DNA of 64,000 nt, from contig QGFZ01000001.1 in the NCBI GenBank assembly GCA_003149065.1, forward strand, positions 1,612,001 to 1,676,000, read 5' to 3'. The position numbers and the translations under genes were made by a program. Origin of the DNA: Ruminococcaceae bacterium R-25 (GTDB taxonomy: Bacteria > Bacillota > Clostridia > Saccharofermentanales > Saccharofermentanaceae). Each line of letters opens with the position of its first letter. Within the stretch, counting starts at the first letter, position 1. The notes below the pieces were generated by a model. The model saw only the letters and a program-made list of their open reading frames with translations, made no database searches and had not been told where the DNA came from. Below, piece after piece: positions 14,032 through 16,038 of the stretch.

Positions 14032-14844
14032 TTACATTTTAGATAGTATTTCTTCTCTCTTTTTTGTAAACTCTTCCTCGTTAATCAACCCGGACTCTTT
14101 CATTGCCAACAGTTCTTTTAATTTATCAGATGTTGAAGCAGGTACATTGGCATTAGTCTGAGCAACTACACGAGAACTTTTTTCTTTTTCTTTGATTTCA
14201 TTAATGCGTTTCATAGCTGCCGAAACAACTTCTTCTGCATTATGAACAAAATGGATTTTAATTACACCAGAAGCAGAACATACGCCCAGAGTCACACCAG
14301 TACGAAGCTTGTCCATCAAACCGGAAATCGTTGTCAAATTATCAACTTTTTCTATTGGCATTTCCAATGTCTTCATAAACAGAAAGCTATTATATGATCC
14401 ATATATTTTTGTCTCAGAAATTGTAAGTGCTGTATTCTTACATTGACGTTTGTGAATAGCATCAATATAAAAAGGTGCTCCAAGAAGAACAAGGAACATA
14501 CCAGATACCCATACAATATTTCCGACATATGGTACAGTATGATCGTACTCGATGTACGAAGCATACACATATTTATGAGTGTATTCACTGACCAAAACAG
14601 CACTATCATACTCATAGAGGTCAACGCCAAACCAATTAATATACGTAAAATCAGAATCAGGATAGTGTTCACCATAAATATTTGTTCCACCTTTTATATG
14701 GTGAGCAATACCGGAGCTGGAAATCAATCCAATAATTAAAACTGCTGCTACTATAACAAGATAAACAATCTTGATTATCTTTCTTTTTTTGTTTGAGACC
14801 TTTTTTATATCTGCTTTTGCCAAAACATGTTCCTGAGTTTCCAT
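14032..14844 (-). CDS. Membrane protein with PH-like region and C-terminal SHOCT motif
   Basis: GAGGAG precedes the ATG at 14844. The 270-aa protein has membrane segments at ~24-44 (IVYLVIVAAVLIIGLISSSG) and ~108-127 (IVWVSGMFLVLLGAPFYIDA). A region of ~140-215 resembles a bacterial PH-like fold (ISETKIYGSYNSFLFMKTLEMPIEKVDNL). It ends with a SHOCT motif (LKELLAMKESGLINEEEFTKKREEIL). SHOCT segments usually mediate oligomerisation. It is in one unit with the 208-aa gene 40 bases upstream. Function unknown. Confidence 0.65.
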   Translation of the reverse strand: METQEHVLAKADIKKVSNKKRKIIKIVYLVIVAAVLIIGLISSSGIAHHIKGGTNIYGEHYPDSDFTYINWFGVDLYEYDSAVLVSEYTHKYVYASYIEYDHTVPYVGNIVWVSGMFLVLLGAPFYIDAIHKRQCKNTALTISETKIYGSYNSFLFMKTLEMPIEKVDNLTTISGLMDKLRTGVTLGVCSASGVIKIHFVHNAEEVVSAAMKRINEIKEKEKSSRVVAQTNANVPASTSDKLKELLAMKESGLINEEEFTKKREEILSKM

Positions 14845-14884: not shown

Positions 14885-15511
14885 TTATTTCTTCCTATAT
14901 GTTACAACCAGACCATCATCCGGGTGATATGTCCAAGAAACAACGTATTTACCGTTTTCCTCGCTTTGACGTCCCATCAAGGCATTCGTTCTCAGCATAC
15001 GCGAATAGACGCTATCCGGAAAGCCTAATTCTTTATTTGCATATTGTATTGCCTCTATTGCGTTATCCTGATACACGTTTAACAACGCATCTTTAACAAT
15101 ATCTTCGTATTCACCACCCGTCCCAATCTCAGACATATAGTCCGGATTTGTATCAATAGTAAAGTATCCTTTGCCAGTAGTAACCGTACCGCTACCAATT
15201 TCTACACACTCTTTCTTTACTTTGTCAAATTCAGATGGAATCAATACAATAACTAGCACAATAGCTATTACGGCAACAAATCCAACAATTCCAATAATTA
15301 TTCCTAATTTCTTTTTTGATACTTTTTTCTTTGTAGCTACCACATCAGCGCCAGTAGAGATCGTGTCTGTCGATGATTTATCTGTTAATGAGGGCTCTGC
15401 ATTTGGAAGTTTTTCCTCGGAACTCTCTTGATTTGTTTTAATCTCCTCGGTCGTAGCGGATTCTTCCTGTGATTTTAGTTCTTCTTGTTCATTTATCTTC
15501 TTTTCTTCCAT
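14885..15511 (-). CDS. Single-pass membrane protein, unknown function
   Basis: AAGGAGGG precedes the ATG at 15511. The 208-aa protein has an acidic, disordered first ~60 residues (Glu/Ser/Thr), a Lys-rich stretch (TKKKVSKKKLG), one membrane segment (IIIGIVGFVAVIAIVLVIVL, ~72-91) and an extracellular domain of ~115 residues ending WTYHPDDGLVVTYRKK. I do not recognise the domain. Its start is 35 bases after the terminator of a structured leader RNA, so its expression may be controlled by attenuation. Confidence 0.65.
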   Translation of the reverse strand: MEEKKINEQEELKSQEESATTEEIKTNQESSEEKLPNAEPSLTDKSSTDTISTGADVVATKKKVSKKKLGIIIGIVGFVAVIAIVLVIVLIPSEFDKVKKECVEIGSGTVTTGKGYFTIDTNPDYMSEIGTGGEYEDIVKDALLNVYQDNAIEAIQYANKELGFPDSVYSRMLRTNALMGRQSEENGKYVVSWTYHPDDGLVVTYRKK

Positions 15512-15546
15512 GTGGCTACCCTCCTTGATATTTCAATTACTCACAT

Positions 15547-15577
15547 AAAAAAAGTGCGGCAACCGAAGCTACCGCAC
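15547..15577 (-). terminator. Intrinsic terminator with UUCG tetraloop
   Basis: The minus-strand stem gtgcggtagc/gttgccgcac with loop TTCG is followed by TTTTTTT. It ends the structured RNA and lies 35 bases before the start codon at 15511. Confidence 0.92.
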
Positions 15578-15691
15578 CGAAAATCGTCAGCCTCGATTGT
15601 TGCGACACAATTTCATCCTGTAACGAATGAGAGACTGACGTTTTTGCCAAACGCCAATTTCGTTACAGGAGATATATTTAATTGTGTCGCA
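15547..15691 (-). ncRNA. Structured RNA of ~145 nt (candidate leader/attenuator or small RNA)
   Basis: On the minus strand a perfect TATAAT (15697-15702) places the RNA start at about 15690. Stems: P1 12 bp perfect (15680-15691 with 15601-15612), P2 12 bp perfect (15659-15670 with 15616-15627), P3 7 bp with one G-U (15649-15655 with 15637-15643). Bases 15631-15640 can pair with 15585-15594 (10 bp, one G-U), giving a pseudoknot from the P2 loop to the 3' flank. A UUCG-capped 10-bp terminator stem and seven T end it. I match it to no RNA family I know. Confidence 0.7.
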
Positions 15692-15842
15692 CCCTCATTA
15701 TAACTTTATAGGCATGGCTATTCCTATATGGAATTGTTAACGAGTAATGAAATTTTCTTTCTCACCTTTCCTTAGCCTGGGTGTTATCTAATCTGTTACC
15801 TCTCAGTTTTATCATTCGTCCCTAATAGATAAATTGAAACAA

Positions 15843-15875
15843 ATATGCCCGAAGCACTAAAGCTCCGGGCATATC
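15843..15875 (-). terminator. Terminator at the right end of the element (now serves ppdK)
   Basis: The minus strand has a 13-bp stem (atatgcccggagc/gcttcgggcatat, with G-U pairs) and TTTGTTT. It is right after the stop of the recombinase-tail frame (15876). In the integrated state it would end ppdK transcription. Confidence 0.8.
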
Positions 15876-16038
15876 TTAAATGTAAATATCAATTCTCATG
15901 TCCTTGTACGCATTGACTTTTGTGTACTCGGGAACGTTCGCGAAATACCGCATAACGTCCTCTTTAGTTATATACAAGGTCATAAAGTAATATGACTTAC
16001 GTGGCTTATTTCCTCGAATGGCGGATTGCAGCCTGTGC
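15876..16038 (-). other. Detached C-terminal coding segment of the recombinase
   Basis: Across the 15-bp core the minus strand encodes HRLQS in the same frame as the recombinase does at attL. At this end the frame continues AIRGNKPRKSYYFMTLYITK and on for 48 codons in all, to the TAA at 15876. Joining the ends in a circle would give a recombinase of about 606 aa. In the integrated form only a shorter frame from the ATG at 15983 (35 aa, MTLYITKEDVMRYF...) could be translated alone, with no visible ribosome binding site. Confidence 0.7.

Follow-up and report, generated by a model that had tools for sequence, protein, structure and literature searches.

The structured RNA encoded at 15547-15691 of the window, the whole 64,000-nucleotide stretch of DNA that was analyzed, is best read as an undescribed, riboswitch-like attenuator that occurs in multiple copies and controls the transcription of secreted, membrane, and small orphan genes. 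Judging by its pairing strands, this RNA seems capable of halting or permitting transcription of the next gene by swapping paired partners. It is quite probably the 5′ leader of the gene that follows it and a transcription attenuator of the riboswitch type. The helices, their compensatory changes, the mutual exclusion of successive pairings, the constant location of a promoter-like box, and the tendency to precede a gene can all be read from the compared sequences. Three of the properties expected of a riboswitch were found by sequence: a conserved structured domain with compensatory changes, an expression platform in which terminator and antiterminator exclude each other, and a place in the 5′ leader, 35 nt from the gene in the window and within 50 nt of one in 50 of 78 usable copies.

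Fold and alternative pairings of the window RNA

The features of the RNA are listed in Table 1. The minus strand folded at −65.0 kcal/mol, whereas 200 shuffles averaged −35.9 (sd 3.85; z = −7.56) and none was as good. The original prediction, made from the letters of the window, had named a TATAAT box just before the structure, two perfect 12-bp stems, an inner hairpin, a 10-bp pairing between the P2 loop and the 3′ flank, and a UUCG terminator 35 bases before a gene with a ribosome binding site. All of these were located on the minus strand, with the gene starting at 15511. An overlap of the pseudoknot strand with P3 had also been predicted and is real, though it spans five bases (15636-15640) and not four. 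The structured RNA at this locus was, in sum, confirmed on the minus strand. The plus-strand reading was rejected since its fold is weaker (z = −4.87) and the downstream gene lies on the minus strand. A weak plus-strand match of model R3, described below (25.4 bits), was dismissed because it mirrors the helices of the minus-strand RNA.

Table 1. Positions of the RNA, its promoter box, and the genes downstream of it in the window.
Feature	Position	Strand	Basis or remark
Whole structured RNA, P1 to end of terminator T run	15547-15691	minus	about 145 nt; shuffle-tested fold and R3 model match
−10 promoter box TATAAT	15697-15702	minus	5 nt upstream of P1
P1 5′ arm	15680-15691	minus	12 bp; pair counts (A3), own-vs-foreign test
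P1 3′ arm	15601-15612	minus	pairs with P1 5′ arm
Internal loop J1/2	15671-15679	minus	AAUA mostly kept in family, 71-90% per base (position profile, n = 84 distinct copies)
P2 5′ arm	15659-15670	minus	12 bp; both-side changes in 10 of 10 counted pairs
P2 3′ arm	15616-15627	minus	pairs with P2 5′ arm
P3 hairpin inside P2 loop	15636-15656	minus	fold and genus alignment A3
Pseudoknot strand in P2 loop	15631-15640	minus	overlaps P3 3′ arm; A3 covariation, own-vs-foreign test
Pseudoknot strand after P1	15585-15594	minus	10 pairs, including one G-U, with 15631-15640
Antiterminator strand	15588-15599	minus	overlaps pseudoknot strand; A3 covariation, own-vs-foreign test
Antiterminator's partner inside terminator hairpin	15560-15571	minus	A3 covariation, own-vs-foreign test
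Intrinsic terminator	15547-15578	minus	UUCG loop and T run; sequence and fold
Ribosome binding site of downstream gene	15519-15526	minus	sequence
First controlled gene (proposed)	14885-15511	minus	208 aa; one hydrophobic segment (by reading); no Pfam match
Second gene in line	14032-14844	minus	270 aa; weak C-terminal SHOCT, below Pfam's cut-off

One pairing was absent from the original prediction. The stretch that directly follows P1 (15585-15599) has partners in both the P2 loop and the terminator. The strand at 15588-15599 (CAAUCGAGGCUG) can pair as an antiterminator with a complement inside the terminator at 15560-15571 (UAGCUUCGGUUG), and the flank half of the pseudoknot consists mostly of the same bases as this antiterminator strand. 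Among the 84 distinct copies described below, bases of the P3 3′ arm are reused by the pseudoknot in 77, and bases of the pseudoknot strand are reused by the antiterminator in 83. The four pairings thus make up a chain (P3, pseudoknot, antiterminator, terminator) whose neighbors are mutually exclusive, which leaves two consistent states. The claim that two states are possible is supported by these exclusive pairings once the antiterminator is added. We infer that the states occur in cells, P3 with the antiterminator allowing read-through and the pseudoknot with the terminator causing a stop. Mean energies of the terminator hairpin (−15.6) and the antiterminator duplex (−17.6) are close, the two numbers not being strictly comparable. 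Of the minimum-energy folds of the first 14 copies, 10 contained the terminator hairpin, and in 4 the terminator was instead bound by the strand after P1.

In the proposed mechanism, the transcript would start at P1, and P1, P2, and P3 would fold first. The strand after P1 would then have two possible partners. If it invaded the P2 loop and opened the 3′ arm of P3, the pseudoknot would form and the terminator would be free to stop transcription ahead of the gene. With P3 and the loop closed to it, the strand would instead pair with the terminator sequence and the polymerase would read through. A signal, presumably bound by the P1/J1-2/P2-P3 domain, would pick the state, and the sign of the response is likewise presumed. 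P1 and P2 are helices of similar length joined by an asymmetric internal loop, which would let P2 fold back and the P2 loop reach the base of P1.

Copies and compensatory changes in the genus and the class

When 115 genomes of the family were searched at the DNA level, 14 strong copies, the window included, turned up in 13 genomes, all of the window's genus. Covariance model R1 found 18 places in 16 of the 115 genomes at E ≤ 1.6e-6, with a single copy in the window's own genome, and gave no matches outside the window's genus in the sample of the order. Several candidates were rejected as homologues: the short DNA matches L022, L024-L027, and L029, which read like coding or unrelated sequence; L107, which reads like coding sequence; and L023 (with the covariance matches L072/L108) as well as an R1 match in G055, which are ordinary terminators. 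One locus, L075 (G026:C4:5862-5957), is possibly a decayed copy that lacks the terminator.

Alignment A3 held the 16 best-aligned genus copies, including the window; two divergent loci, L094 and L095, were left out. RNAalifold run on a MAFFT alignment missed P2 because the P2 arms were unaligned, which the structural alignment A3 solved. P1, P2, P3, and the terminator were 97.2% paired in A3, compared to only 34-47% when partners were slid, and 21 of 41 pairs had changed on both sides. The cells of P2 were paired in 98.7% of cases, and each of its 10 counted pairs had changed on both sides. P1 contained seven invariant pairs out of 12 and four that had changed on both sides. The pseudoknot was 92.5% paired; both sides had changed in 4 of its 10 pairs, and its covariation score was reached by 1 of 500 shuffles. 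The antiterminator was 95.3% paired, with 2 of 12 pairs changed on both sides; its score was reached by 2 of 500 shuffles, and its number of further pair types by 57 of 500. By reading, the shared strand was altered together with both partners in L092, with the loop partner in L091, and with the terminator partner in L093. Arms that change without compensation among homologues had been named at the outset as the outcome that would speak against the structure; the homologues do compensate in P1, P2, and the pseudoknot.

Model R2 was built from A3 and run on whole-genome samples of the class (Clostridia) and the phylum. In the class sample, 89 of 391 genomes, from 52 of 222 genera, matched at E ≤ 0.01, and three of the 89 belong to the window's genus. 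In the phylum sample, the only match among 398 genomes was the window's own, with none in the 397 others, at least 14 of which are listed class genomes. Fifteen class genomes, mostly picked for many matches, held 4-23 RNA matches each at E ≤ 0.01, the weakest of which may be due to chance. Model R3 was made from 38 class copies, with no copy from the window's genus. It found the window RNA at 15550-15691 (92.4 bits, E = 7e-16) and matched 98 of the 391 class genomes at E ≤ 1e-4. The distribution is patchy, a point against the attenuator reading: clear matches were seen in 16 of 115 family genomes, and roughly one in four genomes of the class sample matched. No match came from exact-pattern searches of viral contigs; searches of plasmids gave one chance-like match of 28 bases to the window RNA and none to a class copy. 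Three unannotated faecal records named 'Bacteriophage sp.' (MT835845.1, MT837627.1, and MT835503.1), whose phage status is doubtful, did match a class copy; two of the model matches were full-length (L204:2076-2229 and L205:2903-3058) and one was partial (L206:475-530).

The pseudoknot and the antiterminator were also tested across the class in an alignment-free manner. For each strand, the duplex energy obtained with its own partner was set against those obtained with the partners of other copies, by permutations that take no account of the tree. Eighty loci, chosen mostly by score among the listed R2 class matches (at most eight candidates were scored per genome), contained 95 RNA matches. 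In all, 110 of 111 copies were parsed, the exception being the partial row L172:1166-1265, and 84 distinct copies were left after 26 near-duplicates were dropped. The mean energy with the own partner was −16.8 for the pseudoknot, compared to −11.9 with foreign partners, and −17.6 compared to −12.6 for the antiterminator; neither was equaled in 2000 permutations. For the control pairing of J1/2 with the strand after P1, 1414 of 2000 permutations did as well. The control pairing of the P2-loop region with the terminator was low with the 84 copies (16/2000) and borderline with 68 stricter representatives (98/2000), which weak coupling through the shared middle strand would explain. With the 68 representatives, z was −13.6 for the pseudoknot, −13.4 for the antiterminator, −25.1 for P1, and −34.2 for P2, while four controls lay between −1.7 and +0.9, the P2-loop region with the terminator being the lowest. 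The own partner was the single best in only 3 of 84 copies for the pseudoknot and 12 of 84 for the antiterminator because the copies share a motif. The test was weak with the 16 copies of the window's genus alone (pseudoknot 77/2000, antiterminator 9/2000).

Promoter, downstream genes, and genomic setting

A −10 box within one mismatch was present in 78 of the 84 distinct copies, compared to 14 of 83 at control positions 200 nt further up. The gap to P1 was 5 nt, as in the window, in 53 of the copies with a box, and an extended TG was seen in 57. Further upstream, a conserved block, CGTTAACAA, was noticed in the window (15703-15780) and in L011, L012, L014, L018, and L030, and a short dyad (ATTCCATATAGGAAT in the window) recurs in several genus copies. 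The block or the dyad is a possible activator site.

First genes and their distances were obtained with a script that follows simple rules. Of the 78 non-tandem copies followed by 400 nt or more of sequence, those without a gene start within 50 nt divide into 20 with one further away and 8 with none. The original prediction had left open an attenuator-type riboswitch or leader and a stand-alone small RNA. The attenuator is favored because the antiterminator covaries and because a gene start with a ribosome site lies within 50 nt in the 50 copies mentioned above; the covarying antiterminator disfavors the stand-alone RNA.

Pfam and PHROGs scans took in 51 of the 52 distinct near genes. Nine of the 51 encode BspA-type leucine-rich repeats, and single matches to SLH, CHAP, M23, GDSL, and lectin domains were found along with others. 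No protein family is common to more than nine, and many of the remaining proteins are short. Among the first genes in the window's genus are those for AMP-binding enzymes, DUF4190 proteins, an SPFH protein, a DUF6591 protein whose start resembles a zinc ribbon, proteins that read like lipoproteins, and membrane proteins with a weak likeness to VanZ (below Pfam's cut-off). Relatives of residues ~150-208 of the protein encoded at 14885-15511 in the window were found in viral contigs and, going by record titles, in actinobacteria, most matches being 40-63% identical over 35-57 residues. A cysteine-rich small orphan family (MIIDxTGIxLxPGNxGKDCxGNG...ECCCDEC) follows the RNA repeatedly, in L115, L119, L121, L124, L140, L151, and L183. 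In L115 and L119 its gene stands among housekeeping-type genes, and the one protein tested, that of L119, had no NCBIfam match.

Tandem double or triple copies of the RNA were observed at L168:4787-5366 and in L124, L148, L153, L157, L164, L169, L177, L186, and L159. Seven of 11 gaps between tandem copies were 52-68 nt long, and most of the following units had a −10-like sequence of their own (by eye). In another case, L079:1-16144 and L080:1-16144 represent one chromosomal neighborhood, with common upstream genes and two GTPase-like genes downstream (by reading), and have different genes directly after the RNA.

The original prediction had also placed the RNA in a mobile element, and the comparison of flanks supports a location inside such a unit, near its edge. 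The flank beyond the neighboring pyruvate phosphate dikinase (PPDK) gene matches relatives up to 15807-15876 in four (G014, G026, G049, and G050:C18) of the 58 genomes with any match. On another contig of G050 (C13), the RNA copy has the window segment 15703-15863 beside it at 96% identity. Genes for a serine recombinase and a relaxase lie downstream of the window RNA.

Known RNA families, the signal, and rival explanations

With Rfam 15 at curated thresholds, only five tRNAs were found in the whole window and no family at the RNA. Nine class loci gave none at threshold, and a permissive search returned only matches below threshold. The description of the RNA as unrecognized holds to that extent. 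The best weak match of the window region was sbrA (RF01489), at 25.7 bits against a threshold of 45. sbrA and GadY, both weak permissive matches, were rejected as relatives because they fall below threshold; the likeness to sbrA, a small RNA of Listeria, is confined to the surroundings of the terminator hairpin, whereas P1, P2, and the pseudoknot have no counterpart in it. Literature searches and the passages searched in PMC11109978, PMC8632094, PMC6429828, and PMC2864571 contained no fitting description. Within Rfam 15, for the window and nine class loci, and within the literature searched, the RNA is undescribed.

Fluoride/crcB, preQ1, and pfl/ZMP riboswitches terminate transcription and combine a pseudoknotted aptamer with an intrinsic terminator. 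The window RNA resembles them in its aptamer-like domain with a pseudoknot, its competition between an antiterminator and an intrinsic terminator, and its place in the 5′ leader. It differs in sequence and fold and in having four successive exclusive pairings, as well as in its up to 23 matches per genome, its tandem copies that mostly carry −10-like sequences of their own, and a set of genes among which no common pathway was seen. The T-box also involves a choice between terminator and antiterminator, and the P3 loop carries UGGU before an A run in 37 of 84 copies, which in principle could meet the end of a tRNA. However, the UGG is not invariant, the genes seen are not aminoacyl-tRNA synthetase or amino-acid genes, and the T-box families of Rfam did not match the window or the nine class loci.

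By gene type, the nearest known RNA is the SLH motif, an orphan riboswitch candidate whose 80 examples come from Synergistaceae, Clostridia, Negativicutes, and metagenomes, about 60% of them before S-layer genes (PMC6429828). Like the window RNA, it occurs in Clostridia and precedes surface-protein genes. The family of the window RNA, in contrast, has an SLH domain in 1 of 51 first genes, and in the phylum sample it was found only in the window's own genome. These differences concern genes and distribution, and a distant relation between the two RNAs is possible.

As for the signal that would set the switch, we lean slightly toward a small molecule or an ion, and a protein comes next as a possible but less likely answer. 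A global RNA-binding protein might hold P1/P2/P3 or the pseudoknot and thereby set termination for the whole gene set. Up to 23 matches per genome before unrelated genes would suit one global regulator, and the sequence of P1 is kept in the genus beyond what pairing needs, with 7 of 12 pairs never varying. Against this, the RNA carries a complete two-state switch of its own, and we consider such a protein conceivable though rather unlikely. One named candidate, LoaP, was scanned for together with GGDEF domains in 45 of the 89 RNA-bearing genomes and in 35 genomes without an R2 match (two of these, G197 and G213, later gave R3 matches). LoaP exceeded the cut-off in 9 of the 35 but in only 1 of the 45, the window's own; this disfavors the RNA as a target of LoaP antitermination.

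It is improbable that the RNA is a stand-alone small RNA that acts in trans, with the terminator as its end and the nearby genes incidental. The promoter box and terminator do frame it tightly, the −10-like sequences of tandem copies would not be needed by a simple leader, and 28 of the 78 copies lack a gene start in the first 50 nt. Such an RNA, however, would have no switch in cis tied to the downstream gene and would need no antiterminator, yet the antiterminator covaries strongly, and the copies directly before a gene leave little room for a second promoter.

Sensing of c-di-GMP, or of cGAMP made by GGDEF enzymes, would fit the many surface and secreted proteins among the controlled genes and the 34 GGDEF matches in the window's genome. 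Yet, of the 45 scanned RNA-bearing genomes, 29 had GGDEF and 16 had no match at E ≤ 1e-10; the latter include G384 and G433, which carry 12 and 13 RNA matches. The c-di-GMP families of Rfam matched neither the window nor the nine class loci. Because GGDEF is missing in these 16 genomes, c-di-GMP is a poor ligand for the class as a whole, and we regard class-wide sensing of it as very unlikely. Universal signals such as c-di-AMP and ppGpp, ions, or another protein remain as candidates.

A ribosome-controlled attenuator with a leader peptide is highly implausible: a purine box followed by a start and a frame of at least five codons occurs somewhere in 31 of the 84 distinct copies, but 53 have none, and the starts that exist lie at several different relative places. 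Equally hard to credit is the view that the palindrome is decayed or due to chance, or that it is a repeat of the mobile element at the DNA level. The position near the element's edge might suggest this, but the compensation, wide distribution, and fixed place of the promoter speak against it, and the copies with listed surroundings sit in different contexts; the evidence already contradicts that reading.

As a bolder reading, we see an even balance for and against a new class of riboswitches in Clostridia, one present in about a quarter of the sampled genomes with up to roughly 23 matches each, built on a four-step exclusive chain, and tying scattered surface, secreted, and small orphan genes to one signal for which GGDEF enzymes are apparently not the source. 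If true, this would be a global RNA-based reader of a signal in a major bacterial class. The RNA is common enough to be expected in catalogues, and still no Rfam 15 family matched the scanned copies. A ligand, if found, would tell what controls many surface proteins and small proteins to which no function has been assigned, and the single strand common to pseudoknot and antiterminator offers a test case.

Some of the genes under the proposed riboswitch class lie on mobile elements. The two loci left out of A3, L094:8001-8140 and L095:8001-8148, keep P1, the antiterminator strand, and the terminator around an unrelated middle domain that is common to both (TGCGAGATTT...GGGGTGAGTCGTCCAC), and both precede a secreted-looking protein of ~1250 aa. 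The sensing part may have been exchanged in these copies, a hint that it is an exchangeable unit.
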